A stretch of DNA of 64,000 bases. Origin: Nocardioides yefusunii (GTDB lineage: Bacteria > Actinomycetota > Actinomycetes > Propionibacteriales > Nocardioidaceae). Location: NCBI RefSeq assembly GCF_004014875.1, contig NZ_CP034929.1, positions 620,001 to 684,000 on the forward strand. The letters run 5' to 3'. Each line of letters starts with the position of its first letter. Position 1 is the first letter of the stretch. The notes beneath the pieces are model-generated. The model made no database searches and had not been told where the DNA came from. It worked only from the letters and a program-made list of their open reading frames with translations. The translations under genes were made by a program, and so were the position numbers. Below, in pieces: positions 2,542 through 34,268 of this stretch.

Positions 2542-3219
2542 TCAGAGGTCGAGCTTGTATCCGAGCCCCCGCACCGTCACCAGACGCTGCGGGAGGCTCG
2601 GGTCGGGCTCGATCTTGGCGCGCAGACGCTTGACGTGGACGTCGAGGGTCTTGGTGTCCCCGACGTAGTCGGAGCCCCACACCCGGTCGATCAACTGCCC
2701 GCGCGTGAGCACCCGGCCGGGGTTGCGCAGCAACATCTCCAACAGTTCGAACTCCTTGAGCGGCAGCTTCACTTCGACGCCGTCGAGGGTGACGACGTGC
2801 CGTTCGACGTCCATCCGCACCGGGCCGGCCTCGAGGACGTCGAGAGCCACCTCGCTCTCGCCGCCGCGACGCAGGACCGCGCGGATCCTCGCCACGAGCT
2901 CGCGCGGGGAGTAGGGCTTGGTGACGTAGTCGTCGGCGCCGAGCTCGAGGCCCACGACCTTGTCGACCTCGTCGTCCTTGGCCGAGACCATGATGACCGG
3001 GACCGAGGAGGTCTGTCGGATCTGTCGGCACACCTCGGTGCCCGGCAGACCGGGGAGCATCAGGTCGAGCAGGACGATGTCGGCGCCGTTCCGGTCGAAC
3101 TCGACGAGGGCGTCCGGCCCGGTCGCTGCCACGGCCACCTCGTACCCCTCCTTGCGGAGCATGTACGAGAGAGCGTCGGAGTAGCTCTCTTCGTCCTCGA
3201 CGACGAGCACGCGGGTCAT
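2542..3219 (-). CDS. regX3: Response regulator RegX3 (OmpR/PhoB family, phosphate control)
   Basis: A 225-residue winged-helix response regulator. The receiver domain occupies about residues 1-120, with the acidic pocket EDEE, phospho-acceptor Asp52 (LLDLMLPG), Thr/Ser near 80 and Lys102 in VSAKDDE. The DNA-binding domain (about 128-225) carries LPLKEFELLEMLLRNPGRV and ends GYKLDL. The ATG overlaps the end of senX3 by 4 bp, so the pair forms a coupled operon. The order with mshA and gpm nearby matches mycobacterial senX3-regX3, which answers phosphate starvation. A PHO-box-like repeat upstream of the operon at 4498-4515 fits autoregulation. Confidence 0.93.
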   Translation of the reverse strand: MTRVLVVEDEESYSDALSYMLRKEGYEVAVAATGPDALVEFDRNGADIVLLDLMLPGLPGTEVCRQIRQTSSVPVIMVSAKDDEVDKVVGLELGADDYVTKPYSPRELVARIRAVLRRGGESEVALDVLEAGPVRMDVERHVVTLDGVEVKLPLKEFELLEMLLRNPGRVLTRGQLIDRVWGSDYVGDTKTLDVHVKRLRAKIEPDPSLPQRLVTVRGLGYKLDL

Positions 3220-30700: not shown

Positions 30701-31872
30701 TCATCCGCAGCCTCCCCAAGAACCTGCGCGTCCACTTCGTCCCCGCCCCCAACACCGCGAAGAACTTCCTCGCCGCGGTCCCGGCGGGGGAGGAGCCCCT
30801 GCTCGACGCCCTGGAGCGGTACCTGCGTTCCAGCACCGGCGTCCACGTCCCACGTGAGTCGTGGGACCTCACCAAGCTGCCCAGTCACCTGACGCCGACG
30901 TTCTCCGTCGTCGCCGAGGACGGCAAGGAAGCCGCTCGCGGCAAGGACCTCGACGCCCTCAAGGCGCCGCTGCGTCCCAAGTTCGCGAAGGCGATGGCCG
31001 AAGTCGCCTCCGACACCGGCGTCACCGCGACGGGCCAGACGACGTGGACGTTCGGGGAGATCGAGAAGTCGTTCATCCAGAAGCGCGCCGGTCACGAGGT
31101 CCGCGGTCATCTCGCGCTGACCGACGAAGGCACGACGGTGGGTCTGGGCGTCTTCGGCTCCGAGGAGGAGGCCGCGGCCCGGCACCGTCTCGGTGTGCGC
31201 CGCCTGCTGCTGCTCAACCTGCCCGGCGCCGGGTGGCTGCTGGAGAACCTCTCCAACACCGAGAAGCTCGGGCTGGCCTCCACGCCGTACCCCAACGTCG
31301 CCGAACTGGTCGAGGACCTGCGCGCAGGCGTCGTCCTCGACTTCGTCGACCAGACCGGTGAGGTCCGCGACGGCGCTGCGTTCGACGCCCTGCTGACCCG
31401 CGCCAAGGCCGAGGTGGAGAACGGCCTGCGGGCCGCGATGGCCGACATGGTCAAGCTGCTGGGTGTGTGGCGCACGGTGGAGAAGGGCCTGAGCGGTCGC
31501 GCCGACCTGTACACGCTGCCGGCGCTCACCGACATGAAGGCCCAGCTCGCTCGCCTCGTCGGCCGCGGCTTCGCCGGGGAAGCGGGCGCACTGCGTCTGC
31601 GTCACTACCCGCGCTACCTCAACGCCATCGAGCATCGCCGCGAACGCCTGGCCGGACAGGTCAACCACGACCGGATGCTGATGGACACCATCGCCGACAT
31701 CCAGGATTCCTGGCTGCACCAGGTCGCTGCGCTGCCCGAGGGCCGCCCGCAGCACGCGTCCCTGCGCGAGGCCCGCTGGATGATCGAGGAGTACCGGGTC
31801 CAGCTCTGGGCCGTTCACCTCGGCACCGCCCAGAAGGTCTCCGACCAGCGGATCCGGAAGGTCTTGGGATGA
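27751..31872 (+). CDS. hrpA: ATP-dependent RNA helicase HrpA
   Basis: A very long DEAH-box helicase (1373 residues, family usual about 1300). Motif I GETGSGKTTQ lies at about residue 44, Ia TQPRRIAARSVA, II DEAHERSLN near 150, III SATID and VI QASANQRSGRCGR near 365. The HA2/OB regions follow, and then the HrpA-specific C-terminal half (DUF3418, TLFDFYDARIP, GWLLENLSN). A low-complexity Gly/Arg stretch near residues 620-650 (GGRGGAQNGRGGRGKKP) may add RNA affinity. The family acts in rRNA/mRNA metabolism and stalled-ribosome splitting in E. coli. The start could also be ATG 27763. The stop overlaps the next gene (ATGA). Confidence 0.95.
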   Translation: MDRIMSSEPVLPAITYPEQLPVSQRRDDIAAAIRDHQVVIVAGETGSGKTTQLPKICLELGRGTPDENGRTRLIGHTQPRRIAARSVAERISEELAADGIGTELGDVVGYQVRFTDRTSRSSRIKLMTDGILLAELQRDRMLHKYDTIIIDEAHERSLNIDFLLGYLKRLLPKRPDLKIIVTSATIDVERFSQHFADAKGTPAPVIEVSGRTFPVEVRYRPLILVDEDGEDRTDDDGEVVQRDQTEAIVEAVKELSVAGPGDVLVFLPGEREIRDTADAFDALKSDKLEIVPLYSRLSAAEQHRVFSSHSPLVRRVVLATNVAETSLTVPGIKYVVDTGVARISRYSARTKVQRLPVEPISQASANQRSGRCGRVSEGIAIRLYSQEDFESRPEFTDPEILRTNLASVILQMTSLGLGDIARFPFVEAPDKRNVQSGVQLLEELGALSSTKQETKQETRNDAKGTGRGGVRLTRLGQRLARLPIDPRLGRMILEAERLGVVREVIVIASALSLQDPRERPADQQAQSDQFHARFKDKSSDFLTWLNLWNYLKAQQKELSSSAFRRMCKREFLNYLRVREWQEFESQLRQVCKEMKIDLGSATPQDDRRAEQGGKGAVAEALAAAQGGRGGAQNGRGGRGKKPEKEIRNARREGRAERQEEKYVVSDAPIAAEGGVVYDADGIHQALLSGLLSHIGALEEREKPRPGTKPSERRSMREYLGARGAKFAIFPGSGLKGQNPAFMMAGELVETGRLWARQNAAIKPEWAERLGDHLVKRQHSEPSWSKRRASVVANEKVTLYGVPLVADRAVNYGRIDAPLSRELFIRHALVYGEWAELESGRHKFWTRNNELLAEAEELEHRARRRDIVVDEHTLFDFYDARIPADVVSGAHFNAWWKDERRKHADLLTFDLAMLTHDTADEVEAGDFPTQWHSEHLTFPIAYHFEPGTADDGLTIQVPVATLNQVEADDFSWLVPGLREELVVELIRSLPKNLRVHFVPAPNTAKNFLAAVPAGEEPLLDALERYLRSSTGVHVPRESWDLTKLPSHLTPTFSVVAEDGKEAARGKDLDALKAPLRPKFAKAMAEVASDTGVTATGQTTWTFGEIEKSFIQKRAGHEVRGHLALTDEGTTVGLGVFGSEEEAAARHRLGVRRLLLLNLPGAGWLLENLSNTEKLGLASTPYPNVAELVEDLRAGVVLDFVDQTGEVRDGAAFDALLTRAKAEVENGLRAAMADMVKLLGVWRTVEKGLSGRADLYTLPALTDMKAQLARLVGRGFAGEAGALRLRHYPRYLNAIEHRRERLAGQVNHDRMLMDTIADIQDSWLHQVAALPEGRPQHASLREARWMIEEYRVQLWAVHLGTAQKVSDQRIRKVLG

Positions 31873-32498
31873 CGCGTAGCGTGAACGGGATGGACATGCC
31901 CGCACGGTCCCGACGCCACCACCGCCCGATCATGCGGACCGAGGCGTTCTTCGACGAGCAGGAAGCCGGCAGCGACCCGGCGTCCGTCCGCGAGGCCGGC
32001 CAGGTCGCCGCGACCCTGCTGGTGCGCGGTGTGCGCCGTGAGGGTGACGAGGCGATGATCGACCGCGTCGTCCGGCTCGCCGACACCGAGGGCATCGAGA
32101 CTCTCGCCGACATCTGGGCCGGTGCGCCCCAGGACTCCCTCGCCGGCTCGTTGTGGCGGCTCTACCTGCTCACCACCTGGGTCAAGCGGAACCCGCACAG
32201 CGTCGCGGAGGAGTTCCGTGGCGGACTGGGGGTCGCTCAGGCAGCCGGGGTGGTCGCCGGGGTCGCGGATCCGCCGGGACCGCGTCAGGTGGTCGAGATG
32301 GTCGACGAGGTGCTGCGTGGCATCGCCACCGGCGACTACGTCGACGTCCTGGCCCGCGCTGCGGCCTTCTCGCACGTCGTCGCGACGGGCCGGGGACACC
32401 TGGGCCACGCCACCCACGACGAGACGTTGAAGATGCTCCGGCTCGCCGAGCAGTTCGAGCAGGCAGCGCGCCTGGAGTCCCGCGGCGCGCTGGTCTGA
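31869..32498 (+). CDS. Conserved-looking hypothetical protein after hrpA
   Basis: A soluble helical protein of 209 residues from ATG 31869, or 202 from ATG 31890. The N-terminus is basic (MPARSRRHHRPIMRTEAFFDEQE) and the rest looks like alpha-helical repeats (MIDRVVRLADTEGIETLADIW, LWRLYLLTTWVKRNP, RLAEQFEQAARLESRG). I do not recognise the family. ATG 31869 overlaps the hrpA stop, implying coupling. ATG 31890 has TAGCGT 7 nt upstream (31877-31882), implying an independent leaderless promoter. Both starts may be used. Confidence 0.72.
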   Translation: MTRSVNGMDMPARSRRHHRPIMRTEAFFDEQEAGSDPASVREAGQVAATLLVRGVRREGDEAMIDRVVRLADTEGIETLADIWAGAPQDSLAGSLWRLYLLTTWVKRNPHSVAEEFRGGLGVAQAAGVVAGVADPPGPRQVVEMVDEVLRGIATGDYVDVLARAAAFSHVVATGRGHLGHATHDETLKMLRLAEQFEQAARLESRGALV

Positions 32499-32560: not shown

Positions 32561-32590
32561 TTTGGCGGTGCTTTGTCAGCGACGTAGACT
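32561..32590 (+). promoter_or_regulatory. Promoter of the structured RNA
   Basis: A -35-like TTTGGC (32561-32566) and -10 TAGACT (32585-32590) are spaced 18 bp. Transcription should begin about 32597, exactly where the closing stem of the structured RNA starts. Confidence 0.6.
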
Positions 32591-32596
32591 TCCACC

Positions 32597-32762
32597 AGGT
32601 GCGCCGGGCTGCGGCAGCCCCGGGTCCCAAAATAAGCCGCTACGAGCGGCCACGCGCCGTGAGGCGCTCCCAGTCCGGTGCACCGCTCAACCCCGGCTCG
32701 ACGTTCCTCCCCGTCGGCCGGGAGGCACGTCACACCCCCATCGGGTGCGCGACGGGGGTGTG
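32597..32762 (+). ncRNA. Candidate structured non-coding RNA (about 165 nt), family not recognised
   Basis: The sequence folds by eye into a multibranch structure. P1 pairs 32598-32605 with 32677-32684 (8 bp, one G-U). Inside are P2 (32606-32611/32615-32620, 6 bp), P3 (32636-32641/32645-32650, 6 bp) and P4 (32654-32658/32663-32667 with GUGA loop). The unpaired linkers CGGGTCCCAAAATAA and TCCCAGTCC would be the conserved-core candidates. P5 (32692-32703/32712-32722, 11 bp with one bulge) has a UUCCUCCC loop. A 13-bp hairpin, one mismatch, at 32731-32762 looks like a terminator. No reading frame of note crosses it. It is not SRP RNA, tmRNA, RNase P RNA or any riboswitch class I know. Confidence 0.62.
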
Positions 32763-32825
32763 GTGAGGTCCCCCTCGCTAGAGTGGAATGGCCACATCCT
32801 CGTGCGGAGAGAAGATTCATCGCTC

Positions 32826-34268
32826 ATGACGCCCCCTCGCCACGTCCTCGCCCTGACCTCCGCACTCGTGCTGTCGCTGTCACTCGCGGCCTGCTCGTCC
32901 GACTCCGAACCGGAGGCGAAGCCGAAGCCGTCCGCCACCGCGACCTCCACGCCGAAGCCGATCGACGTCAGCATCGGCGTCTGGGGCACCGACGCCGAGA
33001 TCACCGCGTGGAAGGACGTCCTCGCCACCCGTGACGAGAAGAACCCCACGGTGAAGACCGAACTGGTGACGTGGAAGGACAGCGACGCCGCGCGTGCCCA
33101 GGTGGAGTCCGGCGACCTCCCCGACGTCTTCATGGTGACCCGCAACGACCTCGGCACCGTGCTGGAGAACCAGGCGGCCGTCCCCGCCAGCGAGCTGCTG
33201 GACGAGCGTGGCGTCGACTTCGGCGACCTCTTCTCCCGCGACGCCCTGATGGCGATGAGTGCGCAGGGTGAACTGCAGTGCATGCCGTGGTCGATCCAGA
33301 CCGACGTCCTCTACGTCAACACTGACCTCGTCGACTTCGACGCCATGCGCGAGCAGGGCCTCTCCGTCGCCGGCACCAAGGACGCCTGGGGCCTGGACAA
33401 CTTCGCTGCTGCGGCTGCGTTCGCCTCGCGTCCCGACACCCGCACCGCGGGCGTCCAGGTCGACGCGACCGTCGAGGCCCTCGCTCCGTTCCTGCTCTCG
33501 GGTGGCGCGAACATCTTCGACGACGACGCCAACCCCACCTCGCTCAACTTCTCCGACGACACCAGCCGTGAGGCGCTGCGTCAGACCCTCGCGATCCTGC
33601 GCGACGCGAGCCTGACCCCCACAGACAAGCAGTTGGCGAAGTACAGCCCGCTCGAGCTCTTCAAGCGCGGCAAGCTGGGTATGATCGCCGGCGACCGCAC
33701 CCTGGTGCCCGAGCTGCGCGAGGTCGAGGGCCTCAACTTCGACGTCAAGCCCTACCCGCGCCTCTCGCAGATCCGCACCAGTGGTGACGTGGTGGGTCTG
33801 TGCATCTCCGCGGAGTCGGAGTTCCCGGCGCTGGCCGCCAGCCTGATCGCCGACGTGGTCGCCGACGGCCCGACGGGCCAGATCGCCGAGGCCGGTGCGA
33901 TGACGCCCGCCAACCTCGCCGTCGCGGGCAGCCAGCGCTTCCTGCAGCGTGACCTGATGCCGTCGCGCTCGCGAGTCTTCACCTCGACCCTGCGCGGCAC
34001 CTGGTTCCGTCCCACCTCCGTCGACTGGGACGGCCTGGAGGCCGCCGTCGACCCGATCCTCGAGCGTCTCCTCAACGAGCCCGGCGAGATCGACCTGAAC
34101 GCCTACACCACCGAGATCGACGAGGCCTCGCGTGCCTTCTTCACCGCCGAGGCGGAGAAGAAGGCTGCCGAGGAGGCCGCTGAGCAGGCTGAGAAGGACG
34201 GTGCGACCACGTCGCCGTCCGTCAGCCCCTCGGCCACTCCGTCGGCCAGCACCGCACCGCAGAACTGA
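32826..34268 (+). CDS. Extracellular solute-binding lipoprotein (family 1), solitary
   Basis: A 480-residue lipoprotein. The signal peptide ends in lipobox LSLAAC (Cys at 23). The body is a cluster B-type binding protein, as in sugar ABC systems: IGVWGTDAEITAWKDVLATR, LPDVFMVTRNDLGTVL, QCMPWSIQTDVLYVNTDL and KRGKLGMIAGDRT. The last 40 residues are an Ala/Glu helix followed by a Ser/Pro/Thr tail, an unusual extension. No permease or ATPase gene is adjacent, so it must use transporter parts encoded elsewhere or have a non-transport role. TAGAGT at 32779-32784 is its likely -10. The structured RNA lies just upstream. Confidence 0.85.
   Translation: MTPPRHVLALTSALVLSLSLAACSSDSEPEAKPKPSATATSTPKPIDVSIGVWGTDAEITAWKDVLATRDEKNPTVKTELVTWKDSDAARAQVESGDLPDVFMVTRNDLGTVLENQAAVPASELLDERGVDFGDLFSRDALMAMSAQGELQCMPWSIQTDVLYVNTDLVDFDAMREQGLSVAGTKDAWGLDNFAAAAAFASRPDTRTAGVQVDATVEALAPFLLSGGANIFDDDANPTSLNFSDDTSREALRQTLAILRDASLTPTDKQLAKYSPLELFKRGKLGMIAGDRTLVPELREVEGLNFDVKPYPRLSQIRTSGDVVGLCISAESEFPALAASLIADVVADGPTGQIAEAGAMTPANLAVAGSQRFLQRDLMPSRSRVFTSTLRGTWFRPTSVDWDGLEAAVDPILERLLNEPGEIDLNAYTTEIDEASRAFFTAEAEKKAAEEAAEQAEKDGATTSPSVSPSATPSASTAPQN

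Follow-up and report, generated by a model that had tools for sequence, protein, structure and literature searches.

A conserved three-way-junction RNA of the Actinomycetes, probably a stand-alone small RNA that acts in trans

A structured RNA of Nocardioides yefusunii, encoded in front of a solute-binding lipoprotein gene, represents a new family within a known kind of RNA, the stand-alone bacterial small RNAs. In its fold, a closing helix of 14 bp (P1) encloses two hairpins (P2 and P3) and a near-invariant CCCCGGG linker, and we regard the RNA as the product of a small RNA gene acting in trans, a reading to which we assign a probability of about 0.8. It is probably a regulatory RNA that is shared by many members of the class Actinomycetes and has hardly been described. 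The analysis started from a stretch of 64,000 nucleotides (referred to here as the window), for which a preliminary description had proposed an independent structured RNA of unclassified kind. This proposal is supported, and the finding is larger than that description held, but the structure had to be corrected and a proposed switch was dropped.

Results

The RNA core and its corrected fold

The conserved core is a three-way junction at positions 32598-32684 of the forward strand, on which all features of the window given below with coordinates are located. It is supported by its fold and by homologues, and it is matched at 32596-32685 with 107 bits by the covariance model R1, which was built from 46 family sequences. 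The genome of origin (3.32 Mb, one contig) contains a single copy. The segment 32597-32690 folds better than dinucleotide-shuffled sequences (z = −3.7, with none of 200 shuffles equally good), and the same applies to the longer segment 32597-32765 (z = −4.0). In helix P1, GGTGCGCCGGGCTG (32598-32611) pairs with CAGTCCGGTGCACC (32671-32684), and both strands show double changes in relatives. P1 encloses the near-invariant linker J12 (CCCCGGGTCCCA, 32618-32629), which is unpaired in the model and has invariant columns in alignments A1 and A3, the P2 hairpin GCCGC-TACGA-GCGGC with its UACGA loop (32636-32650), and the P3 hairpin GCGCC-GTGA-GGCGC with the GNRA loop GUGA (32654-32667), which is seen in alignments A1 and A4. 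The preliminary description had drawn an 8-bp closing stem (32598-32605/32677-32684) around three hairpins. The eight pairs are present, but the true helix has 14; likewise, the hairpins at 32636-32650 and 32654-32667 were retained, but the first one (32606-32611/32615-32620) was not, as double changes are missing from all its pairs in 46 sequences, 32 of which cannot form the pair at columns 17-23. Since the corrected P1 uses bases of this first hairpin, the latter would compete with the inner part of P1.

Covariation in homologues, on which the preliminary description had let its proposal depend, is present. Alignment A1 (46 family sequences) was made without reference to structure, and alignment A4 (82 class-wide sequences) was fitted to the covariance model, so that the pair counts of A4 are biased towards the model and those of A1 are free of this bias. 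Two antisense matches (L144 and L145) were excluded from A3 and A4. Double changes that keep the pair were observed in 11 of the 15 model pairs of P1 in A1, and in all 15 in the model-fitted A4. When counted by alignment cells, such double changes numbered 78 in A1 against 28 in shuffles, and 295 in A4 against 92; the excess is smaller when counted by pairs (11 against 8.0 in A1, and 18 of 25 against 14.6 in A4). In 35 of the 82 A4 sequences, the three outermost pairs of the model do not form. G-U pairs are found among the retained P1 pairs (15 of 46 sequences at columns 15-83 of A1), which points to RNA rather than DNA. The P2 and P3 stems hardly vary in A1, where the P2 stem is invariant, and P2 shows a C-G to U-A double change in 16 of the 82 sequences of A4. 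By comparison of homologues, the predicted fold is thereby shown to be selected at the RNA level.

A set of 273 RNAs was chosen by the P2/P3 pattern from the loci at hand; it is skewed towards Nocardioidaceae, and the P2/P3 conservation within it is partly an effect of this selection. Counts of promoters, 3' hairpins and folds refer to 270 of these RNAs, three having been dropped because of locus edges. CCCC plus GG(G/A) precedes P2 in 270 of the 273 RNAs, and single-sequence free-energy folding gives P2 together with a P1 of at least 8 pairs in 234 of 270. The P2 loop is almost always NNNGA, most commonly UACGA or UUCGA, which we take to be reminiscent of the T-loop of tRNA. From Nocardioides to Streptomyces, the CCCCGGG linker, the NNNGA loop of P2 and the GNRA loop of P3 are constant nearly letter for letter, and the bases of P1 vary with retention of the pairing. 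The length between CCCCGGG and P2 differs by single bases in A4.

Distribution of the family

Plain DNA searches identified homologues in nearly all genus genomes (96 of 98) and in most of those from the family (184 of 198, in 20 of 26 genera). Matches to R1 were obtained in 118 of the 147 order genomes (13 of 20 genera), in 168 of the 296 class genomes (60 of 114 genera), and in 17 of 246 genomes drawn from the phylum, all 17 of which belong to the same class. It should be noted that these draws share genomes, and that stricter filters apply to the larger ones. The family is patchy: at the strict filter, no R1 match was found in 128 of the 296 class genomes, and within the order draw none was found in any of the 8 listed genomes of one family (f4) or in 7 listed genomes of one genus (g30). 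A pattern scan with one genome per species returned at least 120 stretches, and every name among the matches listed was actinobacterial. The genera among these listed matches include Streptomyces, Kitasatospora, Mycobacterium, Nocardia, Gordonia, Rhodococcus, Arthrobacter, Microbacterium, Cellulomonas, Rothia, Kocuria, Brevibacterium and Geodermatophilus. The RNA was also observed on an IMG/VR contig (L180, 12476-12524), where it lies beside the conserved bacterial neighbour protein described below (cluster 0); this contig is therefore probably bacterial and not viral.

Neighbouring genes

Neighbouring genes were called with a simple codon-score gene caller. The order in the window is a DEAH-type (HrpA-like) helicase gene, a gene for a protein of about 200 amino acids, the RNA, and the lipoprotein gene. 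The gene directly upstream of the RNA (31869-32498) is a conserved neighbour: among the 273 RNAs, it is the nearest upstream gene on the same strand in 149 cases and a convergent next gene in 16. Its product of about 200 amino acids keeps its place by the RNA across many lineages, with the RNA on the 3' side of the gene in either orientation. No Pfam family is assigned to this protein in any shared way. A single NCBIfam match was at chance level, and the designation 'DNA-directed RNA polymerase subunit beta' in some UniRef entries is an annotation without visible basis. The predicted structure is all-helical (mean pLDDT 81), and a Foldseek search against the PDB gave nothing at E 0.001 (best E 1.3). 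Among the matches listed, the closest named relative of the protein is from Nocardioides daphniae.

The lipoprotein gene (32826-34268) follows the RNA in the window, as had been stated earlier, but it is not a constant neighbour in relatives. Pfam identified no family for the window's own lipoprotein, and SBP_bac_8/1 in a relative. In many relatives, a gene of the PemK/MazF family (Pfam PF02452 in one member) is located between the RNA and the lipoprotein gene, and a PemK-family gene on the same strand is the next gene for 60 of the 273 RNAs. Depending on the lineage, the next gene belongs to the PemK family, to a phosphate-transport pair, to malic enzyme or to the Nudix group. Its strand is the same as that of the RNA in 168 cases and opposite in 93 of the 261 called, 12 being uncalled. 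In Streptomyces, for example in S. pseudovenezuelae (L188), the RNA directly follows a HelD-like gene and precedes a malic enzyme gene; in L141, the malic enzyme gene is followed in turn by an HU-family gene. We use the term 'HelD-like' since the NCBIfam HelR/HelD matches, with E-values down to 1e-113, stay under the curated cut-offs. Because the next genes vary in identity and strand, there is no constant target in cis.

Promoters and 3' ends

A putative promoter (32561-32590) precedes the RNA of the window, with the −10-like sequence TAGACT (32585-32590) just before the stem and a weak −35-like sequence TTTGGC/TTGGCG (32561-32567). The preliminary description had placed a promoter here, and relatives have a promoter-like signal in the same position, which was found at a fixed distance upstream of 250 of 270 RNAs. 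Two types can be distinguished. The motif TANNNT within a 17-base box at the matching place is present in 208 of 270 RNAs, against 10.9 expected. A box of the sigma-R/SigH type (GGAAY-N15-19-GTT), sought in a 74-base segment whose 3' end is 36 bases ahead of P2, is present in 97 of 270, against 2.3 expected from shuffles. Both types were found in 55 of the 270 RNAs and neither in 20, and the window's own copy (L001) has no sigma-R-type box. The spacer of the 97 sigma-R-type boxes measures 18 bases in 70 and 19 bases in 19 of them (together 89 of 97). In excerpts of PMC9205884, and also of PMC2375139, the SigR consensus is given as GGAAT-N18-19-GTT; the spacers observed here fit this rule, and by sequence some of the copies qualify for the regulon.

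At the 3' side, the HelD-linked copies, which are labelled 'Streptomyces-type' from their neighbour genes, are followed by a hairpin of at least 8 pairs in 30 of 32 cases (7.5 in shuffles) and by a T tail after the hairpin in 10 of 32 (0.8 in shuffles). For all RNAs together, a downstream hairpin with a T tail was counted in 24 of 270, against 3.0 expected. The 153 RNAs behind the conserved neighbour gene have 36 downstream hairpins against 29.6 in shuffles, and 2 T tails against 1.4; with hairpins this close to the shuffled frequency, read-through is possible there. In the window, folding predicts two further hairpins 3' of the core (32692-32765), the second of them terminator-like, which may end the transcript. 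Neither the first of these, with a CCUCC loop (32692-32722), nor the second (32728-32765) is conserved, although both had been counted as parts of the RNA: the segment 32686-32770 was matched in one of 40 genus genomes, namely its own, and no T run follows the terminator-like hairpin. Since the 3' hairpins are not conserved in the genus, the alternative-pairing switch that had been proposed from a repeat of GGTGCGC has no comparative support.

Second and tandem copies

Plain DNA searches showed a second, more diverged copy in 11 of 98 genus genomes, and two copies are present in 36 of the 38 listed genomes of one family (f3). In ten loci with second copies that were fetched, the junction, P2, P3 and linker are unchanged and P1 is different. 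The diverged second copies L073-L082, L165 and L167 mostly have sigma-R-type boxes, and their genomes also hold a copy with a housekeeping-type −10. Some genomes thus combine both sorts of promoter, as in G084 (L094 and L073), G284 (L164 and L165) and G310 (L166 and L167). One locus (L168) contains tandem copies at 2888-2976 and 3068-3160, each with a GGAAY-N18-GTT box of its own. Downstream of the RNA in 9 of the 10 fetched second copies (L073, L074 and L076-L082), a conserved stretch was observed that comprises CAGCCACCCGCCGGGTAAGCCCCGGTC and GGGTGGCTG with small differences. This stretch can form a hairpin and is perhaps the terminator of the second copies.

Comparison with known RNAs

In agreement with the preliminary description, which had taken an Rfam hit to a known family as refuting its proposal, Rfam 15 gave no family at threshold in the window (gathering thresholds, with 701 bases also scanned at E up to 10), in 19 loci (E up to 1) or in part of L141 (E up to 10). 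The sub-threshold matches that overlap the RNA are Erse in the window (9.9 of 138 bits), Thr_leader in L140 (29.5 of 55 bits) and MIR171_2 in L141 (16.6 of 65 bits). Erse, Thr_leader, the miRNA families, sR45, ASdes, P10, Plastid-ycf2, sul1, nhaA-I and eiav_FSE all stayed below the Rfam thresholds and were taken as chance matches.

The Streptomyces copies bear on the RNA scr2952 of S. coelicolor, the primary description of which is said to be that of Vockenhuber et al. in 2011. SCO2951 is presumably the malic enzyme gene. The excerpted text of PMC8388888 presents scr2952 as a confirmed transcript and as an Rfam member. By the scr naming rule, as excerpted from PMC3765725, the number is that of the right flanking gene, and scr3559 is located between sco3558 and sco3559 in the excerpts of PMC9130861; scr2952 should accordingly sit between SCO2951 and SCO2952, the latter of which is HelD (744 amino acids) in the excerpts of PMC8655204. 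This is the same kind of intergenic place, between HelD and malic enzyme, as that of the Streptomyces copies, so that scr2952 is probably the same RNA, that is, the Streptomyces gene of this family, matched by position. Whereas the excerpt of PMC8388888 reports scr2952 in Rfam, the Streptomyces-type loci L140 and L141 show no Rfam 15 family at threshold. The excerpts of the PMC literature that concern scr2952 yielded no structure, promoter type, function or relatives outside Streptomyces. In the open-licence PMC literature, we found no description of the structured RNA beyond the name scr2952, and no earlier description of the fold, the class-wide family, the promoter switch or the second copy.

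The RNA shares features with three known kinds of RNA. Small RNAs that depend on stress sigma factors have an alternative sigma factor box directly before the structured RNA. The sigma-R-type copies have such a box in common with them; unlike stress-sigma-dependent small RNAs in general, the promoter type here switches between lineages while the RNA core remains near-constant. The 6C RNA of actinobacteria, which we take to be RF01066, gave no match in cmscan. Its two hairpins carry runs of six or more C, whereas the present RNA lacks such hairpins, carries its C run in the junction linker, and has NNNGA and GNRA loops, unlike 6C. What the two have in common is that they are stand-alone actinobacterial small RNAs with exposed C runs, as far as 6C is covered by the excerpts of PMC8388888.

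The core of about 87 nt also differs from Ms1/scr3559 in its places and in its fold. RNAs of the Ms1/6S kind are rod-like with a central bubble. By the account of PMC9130861, they measure about 160 nt or more and have a HAD hydrolase neighbour. This set of features was not found here. Like the present RNA, Ms1/scr3559 is a widespread actinobacterial RNA discovered by comparison, and in S. coelicolor scr3559 is about 230 nt long, lies at sco3558/sco3559 and adjoins a HAD hydrolase gene (excerpts of PMC9130861). The S. coelicolor cases of RNA-polymerase-binding Ms1/6S RNA in the excerpted PMC11077062 are scr3559 and scr0792, and scr2952 is absent from its main text.

Discussion

The preliminary description had considered both a riboswitch and a trans-acting small RNA. 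The next genes on the opposite strand, the tandem copies with their own boxes and the terminator-like hairpins of the HelD-linked copies favour the latter. Judging from the position of the promoter-like signal, the transcript would begin with P1 or a few bases from it and measure at least about 87 nt. Its target would be a partner common to the class, contacted in trans by way of the invariant linker and loops. Because P1 tolerates changes that preserve its pairing and the junction side is constant, this side offers a face suited to a constant partner, which could be a protein or RNP, or messages that pair with the C-rich linker. In the own genome, complements of the linker are not enriched (59 sites, compared to 101 for a reversed control), and of the 58 sites outside the RNA, 29 were inspected, and one of these was found no more than 40 bases upstream of a called start. 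This scarcity argues against one long, simple antisense seed; pairing of short seeds with G-rich ribosome-binding sites would be compatible with the result. As to expression, the promoter sequences would place about one third of the copies examined in the sigma-R/SigH regulon of thiol-oxidative and heat stress, and the remaining copies, including that of the window, would be transcribed by the housekeeping polymerase. The stress-type box suggests service in the response to thiol oxidation or heat, and the housekeeping-type promoter elsewhere suggests a standing need.

As a sub-case of this small RNA acting in trans, the RNA might not pair with messages but serve as scaffold or decoy for one conserved protein, with a logic like that of 6S or Ms1, a possibility to be taken seriously even though we hold it to be somewhat less probable than its opposite. 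The near letter-for-letter constancy of P2 and P3 includes their stems and goes beyond the needs of base pairing, the NNNGA and GNRA loops would resemble tertiary or protein contacts, and the lack of enrichment of linker complements in the own genome agrees with such a role, as do the neighbours, a HelD-like ATPase in Streptomyces and the conserved protein of about 200 amino acids elsewhere. However, these neighbours vary between lineages, the latter protein resembles no solved fold at E 0.001, and a free C-rich linker is equally typical of base-pairing RNAs. Rather more tentatively still, the RNA could be a core RNA of the Actinomycetes still lacking a name, part of an RNP, constitutive or induced by the thiol-stress sigma factor depending on the lineage, with a reach like that of 6C and Ms1 and with P2, P3 and the linker as contact face.

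That the RNA is instead a cis-acting leader of the downstream gene, either a riboswitch or a protein-binding leader, is unlikely. Junctions closed by a P1 helix are frequent in aptamers, the window's RNA is followed by the lipoprotein gene, and the PemK-family gene is the same-strand next gene of 60 of 273 RNAs. Nevertheless, the variation of the downstream genes in identity and strand makes a riboswitch improbable: the next gene depends on the lineage, and 93 of the 261 called next genes are oriented against the RNA. Moreover, terminator-like hairpins follow the RNA in the HelD-linked group, and the genus has no conserved expression platform, the 3' part being found in 1 of 40 genomes. It is very improbable that a DNA element, such as an inverted repeat or a recombination or binding site, accounts for the conservation; the stretch is palindromic and its antisense strand scores weakly with the covariance model in two loci, but G-U pairs are frequent among the retained pairs of P1 and promoter-like signals precede the sense strand of the RNA at a constant distance. 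A short conserved coding sequence, which the intergenic position and strong conservation might bring to mind, is hardly credible, since the linker between CCCCGGG and P2 varies by single bases and the changes in P1 are complementary pairs.

The small RNA acting in trans that we favour adds a family absent from Rfam 15 to the few RNAs known to run through much of the Actinomycetes, the class of the antibiotic producers and the mycobacteria. If scr2952 is the same gene, the family would give this Streptomyces RNA a frame of sequence and structure. With a fold backed by covariation, a thiol-stress promoter signature and relatives in tractable genera, its role is directly testable.
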